Origin: an uncultured Roseiflexus sp.
GTDB taxonomy: Bacteria; Chloroflexota; Chloroflexia; Chloroflexales; Roseiflexaceae
Assembly (NCBI GenBank): GCA_937935075.1
Contig: CALGYB010000086.1
Location: 1-37,434, forward strand
Direction of reading: 5' to 3'
DNA length: 37,434 nucleotides
In this document: in pieces, positions 1,554 through 14,948 of the stretch
Numbering within the stretch: position 1 is the stretch's first letter
Layout: the number at the start of each line of letters is the position of its first letter
Notes under the pieces: generated by a model
Seen by the model: only the letters and a program-made list of their open reading frames with translations
What the model was told of the DNA's origin: nothing
The model's database searches: none
Program-made: the position numbers and the translations under genes

Positions 1554-2615
1554 TTAGTATGAAATGCCGTGAACCGCGGGCACCTGCTGGGTCAGGCAGT
1601 GCCAGGCGCCAAGCCCCCACACCATGTCGGTGCAGTCAATCCCTACAATCTCGCGTGTCGGAAAGAGTTCCGCCAGGATCGCCGCTGCGCGGTCGTCGTT
1701 TGGATGGTTGAAGGCGGGGAGCAGCACAATACGATTGGCGATGTAGAAGTTGGCATAGGAGGCAGGCAGGCGCCGTCCTTCGTACACCACTGCCGGCGGC
1801 ATAGGCAACTCTACAATCCGCAGCGCTCCACCGCGCAGATCGGTCATGCAGCGCAAGCGGCGCAGATTTTCCTGGAGCGCGTCATAGTTCTCGTCCGACG
1901 GGTCGTGTTCCACTGCCGTCACCACCGTGTCGGGCGCGACGAAACGGGTCAGGTCATCAACATGTCCGTCGGTGTCATCCCCAACAATTCCATCGCCAAG
2001 CCAGAGCACGTTTGAGACACCCAGATACTCACACAAGCGCTGCTCGATCTGCTCGCGGGTGAGGTGTGGATTGCGATTGGGGTTGAGCAGGCATGCCTCG
2101 GTCGTCAGCAGCAGCCCCTCGCCGTTGACATCGATTGAGCCGCCTTCCAGCACCATACCGCCGTCGAAGCAGGGCACGCCAAGCGCCTCCGCCATGCGCC
2201 GGGGAATCTGCTGATCCAGATCGTATGGCGGGTACTTGCCACCCCAGGCGTTGTACTCCCAGTCGATCGCCGCCAGCGGATCGTCGCCGTCGCGCACGAC
2301 GAAGATTGCGCCGTGATCGCGGCACCAGGCGTCGTTCGTCGGGAAGCGGTGGAAACGGATGTCGCCGTTTGCGCCAGCGCTGCGCAGCAACCGGCGCGCC
2401 TCCTCTTCCATCGCCTCGTCGTTGACGTTGATATGGACGGTTTCGGAGTGCGCCAGCGCCGCGACCATGCGCGCGTAGATCGGCAGAATAACGTGCAGTT
2501 TGCCGGGCCACGACTCCGCATTATGGGGCCAGGAAAGCCAGGTCGCCTGGTGTGGCGCCCACTCAGCAGGCATCCGGTAGCCAAGTCGGGCTGGCGTTGG
2601 TTGGGAAGTCGTCAT
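1554..2615 (-). CDS. aguA: agmatine deiminase
   Basis: Hydrolyses agmatine to N-carbamoylputrescine and ammonia, the first of two steps from agmatine to putrescine. The 353-residue product is a typical length for the peptidyl-arginine-deiminase-like family. Visible motifs are an N-terminal P-A-E-W-x-P-H-x-x-T-W-L-S-W-P, a central D-D-T-D-G-H-V-D-D histidine motif, and the C-terminal W-H-C-L-T-Q-Q with the catalytic cysteine at residue 340. The frame stays open further upstream to 2732. I chose the ATG at 2615 because homologues begin just before P-A-E-W and because it leaves a 10-base gap to aguB. The upstream extension would overlap aguB and has no family similarity. The gene is translated as the distal member of an aguB-aguA pair. 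Confidence 0.93.
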   Translation of the reverse strand: MTTSQPTPARLGYRMPAEWAPHQATWLSWPHNAESWPGKLHVILPIYARMVAALAHSETVHINVNDEAMEEEARRLLRSAGANGDIRFHRFPTNDAWCRDHGAIFVVRDGDDPLAAIDWEYNAWGGKYPPYDLDQQIPRRMAEALGVPCFDGGMVLEGGSIDVNGEGLLLTTEACLLNPNRNPHLTREQIEQRLCEYLGVSNVLWLGDGIVGDDTDGHVDDLTRFVAPDTVVTAVEHDPSDENYDALQENLRRLRCMTDLRGGALRIVELPMPPAVVYEGRRLPASYANFYIANRIVLLPAFNHPNDDRAAAILAELFPTREIVGIDCTDMVWGLGAWHCLTQQVPAVHGISY

Positions 2616-2625
2616 CGTTGCTCCG

Positions 2626-3513
<888 letters not shown>

Positions 3514-6822: not shown

Positions 6823-6852
6823 TTGACAGACGCTTCTGCCATACGGTACACT
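6823..6852 (+). promoter_or_regulatory. sigma-70-type promoter for rseP
   Basis: TTGACA (6823-6828), an 18-base spacer, then TACACT (6847-6852). Transcription would start near 6859, about 60 bases before the GTG start. Confidence 0.7.
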
Positions 6853-6918
6853 ACTCTGTACGCGGCGCGCATGTTCAATGGCGGTACAGCAGCCGCTCTG
6901 TATCAGAGGAGAAGCGTA

Positions 6919-8034
6919 GTGTTCGAGAGTTTGCCCGACGGTCTGGTTACCATTGCCGCATTCCTGCTCATGCTCGGGCTGCTGGTGCTGGTTCATGAGT
7001 TGGGGCATTTTCTGACGGCAGTATGGTTTGGCATCAAAGTCGAAGAGTTCGGACTGGGATATCCACCGCGCGCAATGGTGCTCTTTGAGCGCAATGGCGT
7101 TAAGTATACGCTCAACTGGCTGCCTATTGGCGGGTTTGTGCGCTTCAGCGGCGAAGGGGATCAGATCTACGGCGTCGGCAGCCTTTCCGCAGCATCGCCG
7201 TGGAAGAAAATCGCCGTTCTGTTCGCCGGACCGCTGATGAACCTGCTACTGGCGTTCCTCATCTTCAGCGGCATCTTTATGGCGCGCGGCGTTCCGGCGG
7301 TTTTCGACGGCGCACGCATCGATGTCGTCTATCCGGCCACCCCTGCCGAACGCGCCGGCTTGCGCAGCGGCGATCTTCTGGTTGCACTTGGCGGGCGCAC
7401 GCTCGACACCGATCTGAGCGTGATCCGCCTGATTGCAGCAGAAAACCGCGGTCGCACGATCGAGGCGGTCGTTGAGCGCGAGGGGGTGCGTGCTGTGCTG
7501 GCGATCACCCCTGGACCCTGGGAGCGCGACGACGTGAAGTTCGAGAACGGGTTTGGCTTCGCCTACACGCCAAACGTTCGGGTTGTTCCAGCAACACCGC
7601 TCACAGCGCTCGGCACGGGCTTCACCTACACCTTCGATATTTTGGGGCGATTCATCACCGGCATTGGTCAGATGCTCGGCAGCCTGCTGGGAATAAACGA
7701 AGCGCCGCAGGGCGGGGTCGCTGGGGTGGTCGGCATTGCCCGCGGTACCGGCGAGGTCATTCAGCGCGACGGCTGGATCGGCTTCTGGCAGTGGACGGCG
7801 CTTATCAGTCTTAATTTGTTCCTGATCAACCTGCTGCCCATTCCTGCGCTCGATGGCAGCCACATCCTCTTTTCGCTGATCGAGATCGCCCGTGGCGGTA
7901 AGAAGATCCCGCCTGAGCGCGAAGCAATGGTGCATGCCATCGGGTTCATGATGCTCATGGGCTTGATGGTCGTTATTACCGTTTCTGATGTGGCGAACTG
8001 GATCGGCGGCAATCCGGTGCTGGGTGGCGGATAG
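6919..8034 (+). CDS. rseP: RseP-type site-2 zinc metalloprotease (M50)
   Basis: A 371-residue intramembrane protease of the RseP/RIP type, which cleaves membrane-anchored regulators such as anti-sigma factors within the bilayer. The zinc motif H26-E27-L-G-H30 lies in the first membrane segment. A single PDZ-like domain spans about 128-200. The second active-site motif, N-L-L-P-I-P-A-L-D-G with Asp312, lies near the C terminus. I chose the GTG at 6919: it is preceded by AGAGGAGAAG and sits just before the first hydrophobic segment. The open frame begins earlier at 6823, but that overlaps the promoter. The PrsW gene 1.5 kb away is another intramembrane protease, but it is divergently transcribed. 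The Cas4-like ORFs follow after 12 bases. Confidence 0.93.
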   Translation: MFESLPDGLVTIAAFLLMLGLLVLVHELGHFLTAVWFGIKVEEFGLGYPPRAMVLFERNGVKYTLNWLPIGGFVRFSGEGDQIYGVGSLSAASPWKKIAVLFAGPLMNLLLAFLIFSGIFMARGVPAVFDGARIDVVYPATPAERAGLRSGDLLVALGGRTLDTDLSVIRLIAAENRGRTIEAVVEREGVRAVLAITPGPWERDDVKFENGFGFAYTPNVRVVPATPLTALGTGFTYTFDILGRFITGIGQMLGSLLGINEAPQGGVAGVVGIARGTGEVIQRDGWIGFWQWTALISLNLFLINLLPIPALDGSHILFSLIEIARGGKKIPPEREAMVHAIGFMMLMGLMVVITVSDVANWIGGNPVLGGG

Positions 8035-8046
8035 GTCCCCTGAACG

Positions 8047-8295
8047 ATGCCAGATCAGCGGTTACCGACGATACGCGCCAGTGAAATCGGCGAATATGCG
8101 TACTGTGCCCGCGCCTGGTGGCTGCGCCGCGTCGCCGGTCTCGAACCGGAAGGACGCGAACGGCGTGAGCACGGCGCAATGCTGCATCGCCGCCACGCTC
8201 GATCGGTCGCCCTGAGTCGCCTGTTGTTGATCATCGCTGCGCTCTTCGGCGCACTCGCGCTGGCGCTGCTGATCGGCGGCGGGATGGCGGGATGA
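8047..8295 (+). CDS. Cas4-like nuclease, N-terminal part with membrane anchor
   Basis: An 82-residue ORF. Residues 10-53 resemble the start of Cas4/Dna2-type RecB-family nucleases: a conserved cysteine (C20, in Y-A-Y-C-A-R) followed by H-G-A-M-L-H (His47), which is motif I of that family. Residues 57-79 form one membrane helix. The frame ends at TGA (8293-8295). After a single intervening codon the same frame resumes with an ATG at 8299, and that ORF supplies the remaining nuclease motifs. It starts 12 bases after rseP, so it is probably in the same operon. It is either one subunit of a two-chain enzyme or the front of a gene interrupted by a stop codon. No cas1, cas2 or CRISPR array is present. 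Confidence 0.7.
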   Translation: MPDQRLPTIRASEIGEYAYCARAWWLRRVAGLEPEGRERREHGAMLHRRHARSVALSRLLLIIAALFGALALALLIGGGMAG

Positions 8296-8298
8296 CCT

Positions 8299-8814
8299 AT
8301 GGCGATCACCATTGGACTGGCGCTGCTTCTGCTCGCACTCGTCGCTCTGATCGGCGCCCTCCGCCTCCGCACCGCCACCGGGCTGCCATGGGCGCCGGTA
8401 GCGTATTGCGACACCAACGCCCGATCACCGGAACGACCGCTTGTGGCCCGTCGGCTTGGTCTGGTGGGAAAACCGGATTACCTGATCCAGAAACGCGGAT
8501 ATCTCATTCCGATGGAGATCAAACCGGGACGCAACGCAACACGCCCGTATGAATCCGATCTGATGCAACTGGCGGCGTATTGCCTGTTGATCGAGGAAAC
8601 CACCGGCACTGCCCCGCCGTATGGCTTGTTGCGGTATGCCGATCGAACGTTTCGGCTATCGTATACAGCGCGCGTGCGCGAAGAGACGCTGGCGCTGATC
8701 GAAGAGATGCGCGCGGCGCTTGACAACGAGTGTGATCGGAGTCACGATGATCCCGCACGCTGTTTCGGATGCGGGTTTGCCTCGATGTGTGATCAGGCGC
8801 TGCGGGATTCGTAA
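8299..8814 (+). CDS. Cas4-like PD-(D/E)xK nuclease, C-terminal part with membrane anchor
   Basis: A 171-residue ORF that starts with a membrane helix (residues 3-22) and continues with the catalytic core of a Cas4/RecB-type nuclease. Visible residues are Asp60 in V-G-K-P-D, Glu73-x-Lys75 in M-E-I-K-P-G, the Q90-x-x-x-Y94 motif, and a C-terminal cysteine cluster C155-x2-C158-x5-C164. Cas4 proteins bind an iron-sulfur cluster with one N-terminal and three C-terminal cysteines. Here the first cysteine is on the preceding ORF (C20) and the other three are on this one. It has no obvious Shine-Dalgarno sequence, so translation probably depends on re-initiation or readthrough from the upstream ORF in the same frame. 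Confidence 0.78.
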   Translation: MAITIGLALLLLALVALIGALRLRTATGLPWAPVAYCDTNARSPERPLVARRLGLVGKPDYLIQKRGYLIPMEIKPGRNATRPYESDLMQLAAYCLLIEETTGTAPPYGLLRYADRTFRLSYTARVREETLALIEEMRAALDNECDRSHDDPARCFGCGFASMCDQALRDS

Positions 8815-8873
8815 TTCATTCAGGCAGAGCCGTTGCAATGCAGCGGCTCCGCCCAATCATCAGACCGAGATTA

Positions 8874-9128
8874 ATGACGGTCATTACACGCAACGCGGTA
8901 GCGGATCAGATCGAGCAACGATTATCCGGCGCCATGACCGACGACGCGCTGGCATCGTGGGCATTCGACCAGTTCTATGCCGTAGAACTCGGTCTGGCAT
9001 GCTTCGAGGCGGGCGCCGGGGAGCGCATCGCTGATATACTTGACGCGCTCATGTTCAGCGATCACGAGGCGTTTCGTCTCAACGAAGAGGAACTGCGCAG
9101 GCTGGCTGCGCTGCTGAGGATGCCATGA
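8874..9128 (+). CDS. small protein of unknown function
   Basis: An 84-residue acidic, probably soluble helical protein that I do not recognise. The frame extends upstream to an ATG at 8838, but that start has no ribosome-binding site. The ATG at 8874 is a reasonable choice, though its own site is also weak. It follows the Cas4-like ORFs by about 60 bases and overlaps the next gene by four bases (ATGA), so the two small proteins are translationally coupled and may act together. The composition, with repeated leucine and glutamate and no cysteine motif, gives no further clue. Confidence 0.65.
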   Translation: MTVITRNAVADQIEQRLSGAMTDDALASWAFDQFYAVELGLACFEAGAGERIADILDALMFSDHEAFRLNEEELRRLAALLRMP

Positions 9129-9460
9129 AGATTCGGACCCATCCGCGAATAGGCGCCATTTGTGTCGGCGACGAGGTGTATTCGTACCGCTATCACCTGT
9201 TCGCGCGCGTTGAAGCGGTCTTTCCGGCGGCGGTGTGCGTCAAGATCGCCGCGATCGATGGCGTTCATCCGCTGAAATTGACCCTCATCCCCCAACTCTG
9301 GCGCGCCGACGATATCGAAAATCTGAGCGTGTGTCGCTACTGCGGCGGGCGCGACAATCTCCACCTCGAGCGTGAGACCGGCATTCCATTTCGTGTCTGC
9401 GCTCAGTGCCGCGTTGTTCCACCACAAGAACACCACTACGTCTGGTGGCGCTGGTGGTAG
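9125..9460 (+). CDS. small zinc-ribbon-like protein of unknown function
   Basis: A 111-residue protein with two CxxC pairs about 22 residues apart (C-R-Y-C-G-G and C-A-Q-C). These probably form a zinc ribbon in the C-terminal half. The N-terminal half has a beta-rich look suggestive of a small SH3-like or Tudor-like barrel, but this is only a guess. The C terminus is rich in tryptophan and histidine. The start overlaps the stop of the preceding 84-residue gene by four bases. The stop is one base from the convergent GerMN gene, so no separate terminator fits between them. Confidence 0.7.
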   Translation: MKIRTHPRIGAICVGDEVYSYRYHLFARVEAVFPAAVCVKIAAIDGVHPLKLTLIPQLWRADDIENLSVCRYCGGRDNLHLERETGIPFRVCAQCRVVPPQEHHYVWWRWW

Positions 9461-13395: not shown

Positions 13396-14385
13396 ATGAA
13401 CGATCTTCCTTTGTTTCGATTACCCAAGCCGATTGAAGATACATTTCGATCTGACGCAGAGATCGTTGTATTCAATGGGGATGTCAGTGATTTTATCAAG
13501 CAGATTCCCGACAATTCCATCACTCTCGTTGTCACTTCTCCGCCTTATAATCTAGGCAAGGCATATGAAAACCGTATTTCTATCGAGAAGTATCTAAGAT
13601 CACAGACTCAGTTAATAAATCAACTATATCGAGTTCTCAAGAACGATGGAAGCATTTGCTGGCAGGTGGGAAACTTCGTCGAAGATGGAGAAGTATACCC
13701 GCTTGATATTCTTTACTACCCTATTTTTAAAGAAATTGGCATGAATTTGAGAAACAGAATTATCTGGAAATTTGGACACGGATTACATGCCTCCAAACGG
13801 TTTTCAGGGCGATACGAAACCATCTTGTGGTTTACCAAATCAGACAAGTACATCTTCAATCTCGACTCTGTCCGCGTTCCATCAAAGTATCCCGGAAAAC
13901 GGCACTTTAAGGGTCCAAATAAAGGAAAGCCTTCGGGAAACCCTCTTGGCAAAAATCCATCTGACATATGGGAGGTTCTGGCGCAAGACTGGGAGGAAGA
14001 GGTTTGGGATATTCCGAATGTAAAGTCCAATCACCCGGAGAAAACCGTACACCCTTGTCAGTTTCCTATTGAACTCGTCGAACGGTGCGTTCTTGCACTT
14101 ACGAATGAAGATGACTGGGTTTTCGATCCATATATGGGTGTTGGCTCGTCTCTTATCGCTGCCCTCATGCATAATCGACGCGCAGTAGGTTGCGAAAAAG
14201 ACGCTGCTTATACAGAGCTGGCTCGTCAGAGGATACGAGACTACTATAATGGTACGCTTCGTTATCGCCCTATCGGAAAACCGGTTTATCAACCGACAGG
14301 AAACGAGAAGGTATCTCAAATACCGGAAGAGTGGATAGAGCAATCTCAGGAGCGTCTGCTCGAAACCCGAGGAGATTACGAATGA
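13396..14385 (+). CDS. type II DNA methyltransferase (TSPPY motif, beta-class order)
   Basis: A 329-residue site-specific DNA methyltransferase. The catalytic motif T-S-P-P-Y (47-51) precedes the S-adenosylmethionine motif F-D-P-Y-M-G-V-G (243-250), which is the beta-class order. S-P-P-Y is typical of N4-cytosine methyltransferases, although some N6-adenine enzymes use related forms. It overlaps by four bases a gene for a BglII-like endonuclease, so the pair forms a type II restriction-modification system with the methyltransferase first. The gene is visibly A+T-richer than its neighbours, with many AAA, AAT and TAT codons, a sign of horizontal transfer. The pair sits between the aminotransferase gene and rsmD. 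Confidence 0.92.
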   Translation: MNDLPLFRLPKPIEDTFRSDAEIVVFNGDVSDFIKQIPDNSITLVVTSPPYNLGKAYENRISIEKYLRSQTQLINQLYRVLKNDGSICWQVGNFVEDGEVYPLDILYYPIFKEIGMNLRNRIIWKFGHGLHASKRFSGRYETILWFTKSDKYIFNLDSVRVPSKYPGKRHFKGPNKGKPSGNPLGKNPSDIWEVLAQDWEEEVWDIPNVKSNHPEKTVHPCQFPIELVERCVLALTNEDDWVFDPYMGVGSSLIAALMHNRRAVGCEKDAAYTELARQRIRDYYNGTLRYRPIGKPVYQPTGNEKVSQIPEEWIEQSQERLLETRGDYE

Positions 14386-14948
14386 TTATAGCAGCAGCAT
14401 ACTATTTCAAAGGTTCTCAGAATACATTTTGGACATATAAGAACGAACTTGCAGAAGTTGGGGAAATCATCAGGAGTGTTGATAGCGCTCAGTATAAAAC
14501 AAAACAGAGCCAGGAAAAAACAATGCTCGGTACAATGCTCTACGATCCTGTTTCCTTAAACGATGCCTTCGAACAGGCTTTTACCTTCAGGAAATGGGAG
14601 AAAAAAAGGATACTTTGTGAATACTCCAGCGGGTACTATTTACCATACTTCAAATCGAAGACAACGCCCAAGCGCGCTTTTCGGGAGATGGATTTTGTCA
14701 AAAATCGTGTAGGTGTCGAAGTTCAGTTTGGCAAGTATGCTTTCATGGTCTACAATGTTTGCGCAAAGATGACCATCTTTCACAAAAAGAAATATATCGA
14801 TGTCGGTATCGAGATTGTCCCGATTAAGGAGTTTGCAGACCAAATGTCCACGGGCGTCTCATACTTCGAACAGCTTGTTTGGGATTTAGAGGAACGTGGC
14901 ATTGCAGACATCGACATTCCCGTGCTGATTTTGGGAGTTAGCGAATAA
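14382..14948 (+). CDS. BglII/BstYI-family type II restriction endonuclease
   Basis: A 188-residue endonuclease. The motif M-D-F-V-K-N-R-V-G-V-E-V-Q-F supplies Asp104, Glu113 and Gln115. This spacing (9 then 2) equals that of the BglII active site (Asp84, Glu93, Gln95), a rare E-x-Q variant of the usual E-x-K. BglII and BstYI cut AGATCT and RGATCY, so a GATC-centred target is likely but unproved. The frame is open upstream to 14331. I chose the ATG at 14382: it overlaps the methyltransferase stop (ATGA), has a GAGGAGA site, and begins in a way that fits the family. The gene shares the A+T-rich composition of its methyltransferase partner. Confidence 0.87.
   Translation: MIIAAAYYFKGSQNTFWTYKNELAEVGEIIRSVDSAQYKTKQSQEKTMLGTMLYDPVSLNDAFEQAFTFRKWEKKRILCEYSSGYYLPYFKSKTTPKRAFREMDFVKNRVGVEVQFGKYAFMVYNVCAKMTIFHKKKYIDVGIEIVPIKEFADQMSTGVSYFEQLVWDLEERGIADIDIPVLILGVSE

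Follow-up and report, generated by a model that had tools for sequence, protein, structure and literature searches.

The window analysed here, i.e., the whole 37,434-nt stretch of contig CALGYB010000086.1 from an uncultured Roseiflexus sp. (Roseiflexaceae, Chloroflexales), carries on its forward strand two short open reading frames that share a frame and are parted by one stop codon. The first (N-half, 8047–8295, 82 aa) contains motif I with C20 and H47, followed by a predicted C-terminal membrane helix at about residues 59–77, and it ends in the TGA at 8293–8295, which is a real stop. After a single codon (CCT) the second (C-half, 8299–8814, 171 aa) begins with ATG at 8299, and here a predicted N-terminal membrane helix at about residues 2–20 precedes a catalytic core with D60, E73-x-K75, Q90 and Y94 and three putative iron-sulfur cysteines, C155, C158, and C164. 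The frame, the stop, the intervening codon and the start are all as described in the original prediction, and the motif residues were found at the positions that it gave. On the same strand the pair is preceded by a gene for an RseP-type site-2 metalloprotease (M50 with PDZ, 6823–8034) and followed by two small genes without a family match (8838–9128 and 9125–9460). Elsewhere in the window a DNA methylase (N6_N4_Mtase) and then a BglII-like restriction endonuclease form a type II restriction-modification pair (13396–14948), and a peptidyl-arginine/agmatine deiminase-like gene (PAD_porph) lies beside a carbon-nitrogen hydrolase (1554–3513), possibly as a putrescine route.

Sequence profiles place the two halves within one family. 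The C-half matched Pfam PF01930 (Cas_Cas4) with 33.5 bits against a cut-off of 22.7 and was above the cut-off for PF12705 (PDDEXK_1) as well, while the N-half had no Pfam match. The NCBIfam model TIGR00372 is covered in succession, positions 2–45 by the N-half and 61–178 by the C-half, and its cut-off of 65 bits was exceeded by the joined halves (80.7) and by neither half alone (C-half 62.6, N-half 21.7). The PADLOC Cas4 models gave the same two-part pattern, and the Pcal_0546 Cas4 (4r5q) was among the PDB sequence matches of both half-profiles in a collinear manner, the match of the N-half being weak (E 0.5). A match of the joined chain to PspM was dismissed as a coincidence of the hydrophobic hairpin. 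The N-half and the C-half are thus two pieces of one Cas4-type PD-(D/E)XK nuclease with a predicted membrane hairpin between them.

The two chains were modelled together with AlphaFold2 as one joined chain, by reading through the window sequence with the stop entered as glycine, which is a modelling device only, and with the unlinked halves of relatives as separate alignment rows. The resulting model (mean pLDDT 93.9, pTM 0.89) has a Cas4 fold with two long helices, 37–81 and 84–111, and its best structural match is the CRISPR Cas4 7mi4_A (Z 19.3 over 180 residues, 2.7 Å), followed in order by the nuclease domains of AdnA, EXO5, ACE1, and Dna2. Because the chains were joined, the model speaks for the compatibility of the halves with one Cas4 fold and not for their binding. 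Aligned to single-chain Cas4 the hairpin comes directly after motif I, and each half contributes one strongly hydrophobic stretch. The maximum 19-residue hydropathy is 1.42 in single-chain Cas4 compared to more than 2.0 in every N-half; in a few C-halves it is only about 1.3–1.4, which makes the helix call weaker there. No membrane-type segment was seen in the ordinary Cas4 chains that the same searches returned. Positive charges lie before the helix of the N-half and after that of the C-half, i.e., on the predicted cytoplasmic side, and the positive-inside rule therefore predicts a cytoplasmic location for both nuclease parts. The membrane hairpin proposed in the original prediction is consistent with this placement and with the conservation of the hairpin among relatives.

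It was asked originally whether related genomes carry fused or split forms. The set of relatives comprised 40 genomes, including that of the window, and 34 of them gave a match. One match (G029) is an ordinary Cas4, and all of the 33 genomes with a membrane-type C-half have the split form. A scan of genome contigs, which spanned all phyla and detects close relatives only, returned 43 loci in Chloroflexota and Clostridia. The scanned loci holding both ends of the region were split, including seven of seven in Clostridia, with L052 and L062 left outside this judgement. Whole-genome sampling covered Chloroflexota, to which the genome of L052 belongs, and Bacillota. The majority of about 90 sampled Chloroflexota genomes have the split form; a broader sampling of Bacillota shows the membrane-type form to be rare there, with 6 of 348 genomes carrying it, and split every time. 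In one of these six (L145) even the N-half is spread over two open reading frames. In total 12 Bacillota loci carry the form, all of them split. Both halves are under purifying selection, with dN/dS of 0.11–0.26 for the N-half and 0.06–0.13 for the C-half, and are conserved far beyond chance. A single stop codon parting the halves in the window sequence is what a recent mutation, a pseudogene or a sequencing error in a single-chain Cas4 would look like. The chance of this is nevertheless negligible given that all 33 genomes share the architecture, that it recurs in single-contig genomes and in a second phylum, and that dN/dS is well under 1 for both halves. Nor is the TGA a read error, as the identical in-frame codon is kept in five genomes of the genus of the window, one of which is a single contig.

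The original prediction left room for readthrough as well. If the TGA were recoded or read through in a programmed manner, a single chain would result at least part of the time, and this would fit both the genus of the window, where a single stop parts two in-frame halves, and the ease with which the joined chain is modelled. However, outside the five genomes the TGA is replaced by TAG or the frame changes, and a relative within the genus (L007) has TAG followed by TGA. Among 90 adjacent pairs only 10 are in frame while 80 are not, the stop at the junction may be TGA, TAG or TAA, and the two genes are unlinked in several genomes, some of which carry them on different contigs, so that neither a conserved in-frame stop nor a conserved frame is found. 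The C-half also retains its own start codon beside the stop, and the junctions often overlap as ATGA or TGATG/TAATG, which is typical of coupled translation. As the frame relation varies in this way readthrough is not the mechanism, and any contribution from it must be considered very improbable.

Where a C-half was without an adjacent N-half, a profile of the N-half found one in the same genome in nine of nine cases. In three of these (G111, G050, and G210) it lies near the C-half behind other sequence, and in six (G073, G288, G179, G302, G314, and G234) it lies on another contig or far off, at distances reaching megabases, e.g., 0.89 Mb away in G314 and far off on the same single contig in G234 (3.3 Mb). 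The same profile found no N-half in three genomes without a C-half. Among 301 Chloroflexota genomes a membrane-type C-half was read from the hit tables in 91 and a strong N-half was seen in 67; both are present in 66 and only one has a strong N-half alone. The co-occurrence has a Fisher p of about 3e-44, which overstates independence because the species are related and no correction for relatedness was applied. The 91 genomes include, beyond the 66, 17 with a weak N-half match and eight others: two with fused forms, two in which a custom profile found the N-half (L140 and L143), two that a contig end cuts off, one that is degenerate (L129), and G153 as the remainder. Some individual genomes deviate in other ways. 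A strong N-half (G095, contig C48, 1522–1734, E 6.9e-20) was seen in a genome that is 82% complete and in which no C-half was found, a second C-half copy in another genome (L125, G255, contig C30) has a TAA inside the catalytic core, and the genome of L047 (G682) carries two different membrane-type C-halves on contigs C22 and C34, either by paralogy or by mixed binning.

The two natural fusions (G060 and G298, family f24) hold both parts in one open reading frame of 353 and 330 residues, respectively, the motifs being separated by two hydrophobic stretches. They support the idea of the halves working as a single protein. In a tree of C-halves, where one row (L134) is a 586-residue single chain from an unrelated context, the fusions stand apart from each other and are nested among split forms, the neighbour of G060 being the split G305 (support 100/97). 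With this nesting fusion looks derived, though the deep nodes of the tree are too weak to speak for a single origin of the split. With homologues split and the pieces modelled as one Cas4 fold, the two-subunit proposal of the original prediction is supported, and it is quite probable that the two open reading frames encode a single Cas4-type nuclease, bound to the membrane and made of two subunits that are both obligate.

The residues expected of the Cas4 family, including the motif-I histidine and Q-x-x-x-Y, are present. D60, E73, K75, Q90, Y94, C155, C158, and C164 are invariant in 12 diverse C-halves, as are C20, W24, G43, and H47 in the N-halves of 12 diverse pairs. Across the wider sampling the C-half residues remain complete in the Bacillota members and most other families, and in Chloroflexales with few exceptions. 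The catalytic residues are lost in family f17 and in parts of f24, where the motif-I histidine of the N-half decays too, and not every member can therefore be an active nuclease. Two split members of f17 (L131 and L133, in G048 and G108) have lost the catalytic residues and kept the four cysteines, and are apparent pseudo-nucleases. C20 of the N-half and the three cysteines of the C-half, which together are predicted to hold a cluster, persist in every sampled lineage, even where the catalytic residues decay, and this suggests that constraint on the pair is strongest at the shared putative iron-sulfur site. The complex could then be mainly structural or regulatory, e.g., a membrane redox sensor, rather than a nuclease. 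This is rather unlikely given that the full catalytic set is retained by Chloroflexales and Bacillota and, beyond them, by most families.

In Chloroflexales the order RseP, N-half, C-half and the two small genes is conserved, the small genes being syntenic in most members (with 50–95% identity for the second). The site-2 protease highlighted in the original prediction is thus a true syntenic neighbour in this order. Elsewhere the pair has other neighbours and the protease is not part of the system, and a functional link to it was rejected since the synteny is confined to Chloroflexales. Clostridia have an HD-domain gene and a gene for an RNA uracil methyltransferase near the pair, and other groups a different HD-domain gene (f24), NAD kinase, HisRS or DnaX; among the neighbourhoods examined no functionally telling gene is common to the lineages. 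The HD-domain genes directly upstream in Clostridia (L072 and L070) and in Chloroflexota f24 (L116, L120, and L122) are of two types, the Clostridia type being OB+HD and YhaM-like, which may or may not matter.

A location at the membrane could allow the pair to meet incoming DNA as a component of CRISPR adaptation or anti-phage defence. The Cas4 fold and motifs, the CRISPR Cas4 proteins as closest structures, and the restriction-modification pair about 4.6 kb downstream are in line with this. On the other hand, no Cas1 match was found anywhere in the genome of the window, which is 99.95% complete, the pair does not sit beside cas1/cas2 in an adaptation module as CRISPR-associated Cas4 does, and Cas1 is absent from 13 of the 33 pair-carrying genomes (that of the window and 12 further ones). 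As expected originally, the role in the window genome is therefore not CRISPR adaptation. Moreover, no relatives of the pair were found in viral contigs, and in Chloroflexales the pair is found in synteny across nearly the whole order, unlike patchy defence islands. Defence in general is accordingly an unlikely function, and because of this syntenic and nearly order-wide presence a housekeeping role in DNA processing is favoured over it. It is tempting to speculate that the pair is inherited vertically and serves, outside CRISPR, as a nuclease for trimming DNA ends close to the membrane, its activity being controlled by two-chain assembly and the shared cluster, and this role is offered as a tentative one.

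The split, the hydrophobic hairpin, the conservation, the co-occurrence and the joint fold come directly out of the computations, and from there we infer membrane insertion, iron-sulfur binding, subunit pairing and nuclease activity. The N-subunit would place its motif-I helices in the cytoplasm and send one helix outward through the membrane, and the C-subunit would return with one helix inward, followed by the catalytic PD-(D/E)XK core. Translation of the two subunits would be separate and, where the genes are adjacent, would probably proceed by coupled re-initiation; the subunits could pair via the helical hairpin into one complete cytoplasmic nuclease. Both chains would then contribute to the active site (H47 from the N-subunit with D60, E73, and K75 from the C-subunit) and to the four-cysteine iron-sulfur site (C20 with C155, C158, and C164). 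It is conceivable, as a working model that we hold with reserve, that this is an ancient and obligate two-subunit inner-membrane nuclease outside CRISPR, in which the active site and the inter-chain iron-sulfur cluster form only on pairing so that activity is gated by assembly and redox state. Such a design points to DNA being cut only at the membrane and only by the assembled pair.

The pair represents a conserved variant of Cas4 that is encoded by two genes and has a predicted membrane hairpin, and this architecture is well supported by computation. With Cas4 (TIGR00372/PF01930, including type I-C Cas4 and the Cas4-Cas1 fusion) it has in common the fold, as judged from the read-through model, the order of motifs, the catalytic residues and the one plus three cysteines. 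It differs from Cas4 by its two chains, the membrane hairpin after motif I, the non-CRISPR loci and the occurrence in genomes that lack Cas1; a single soluble polypeptide is usual in Cas4, if not strictly defining, whereas here there are two genes with a hydrophobic helix each. ACE1 (the Argonaute-associated Cas4), AdnA/AddB, Dna2, and EXO5 have a related iron-sulfur or RecB-type PD-(D/E)XK nuclease fold, and to our knowledge none of them has its nuclease domain split over two genes at a membrane hairpin. No paper on a split or membrane Cas4, and thus no earlier description of the two-piece membrane-tethered arrangement, was found in the open-access literature, which is what the search covered. 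It is an unusual nuclease design, in which a catalytic domain is divided between genes at a membrane hairpin across two phyla and despite gene separation, and it makes a natural split nuclease available for study. The nearest counterpart is solo-Cas4, a non-CRISPR Cas4 like the pair, which occurs in many Chloroflexi and is treated as single chains with four cysteines, the text making no mention of a split or of a transmembrane segment (Hudaiberdiev et al., 2017, PMC5704561). The solo-Cas4 set may include the C-half described here, and solo-Cas4 counts in Chloroflexota and some Bacillota were probably made from half-proteins.
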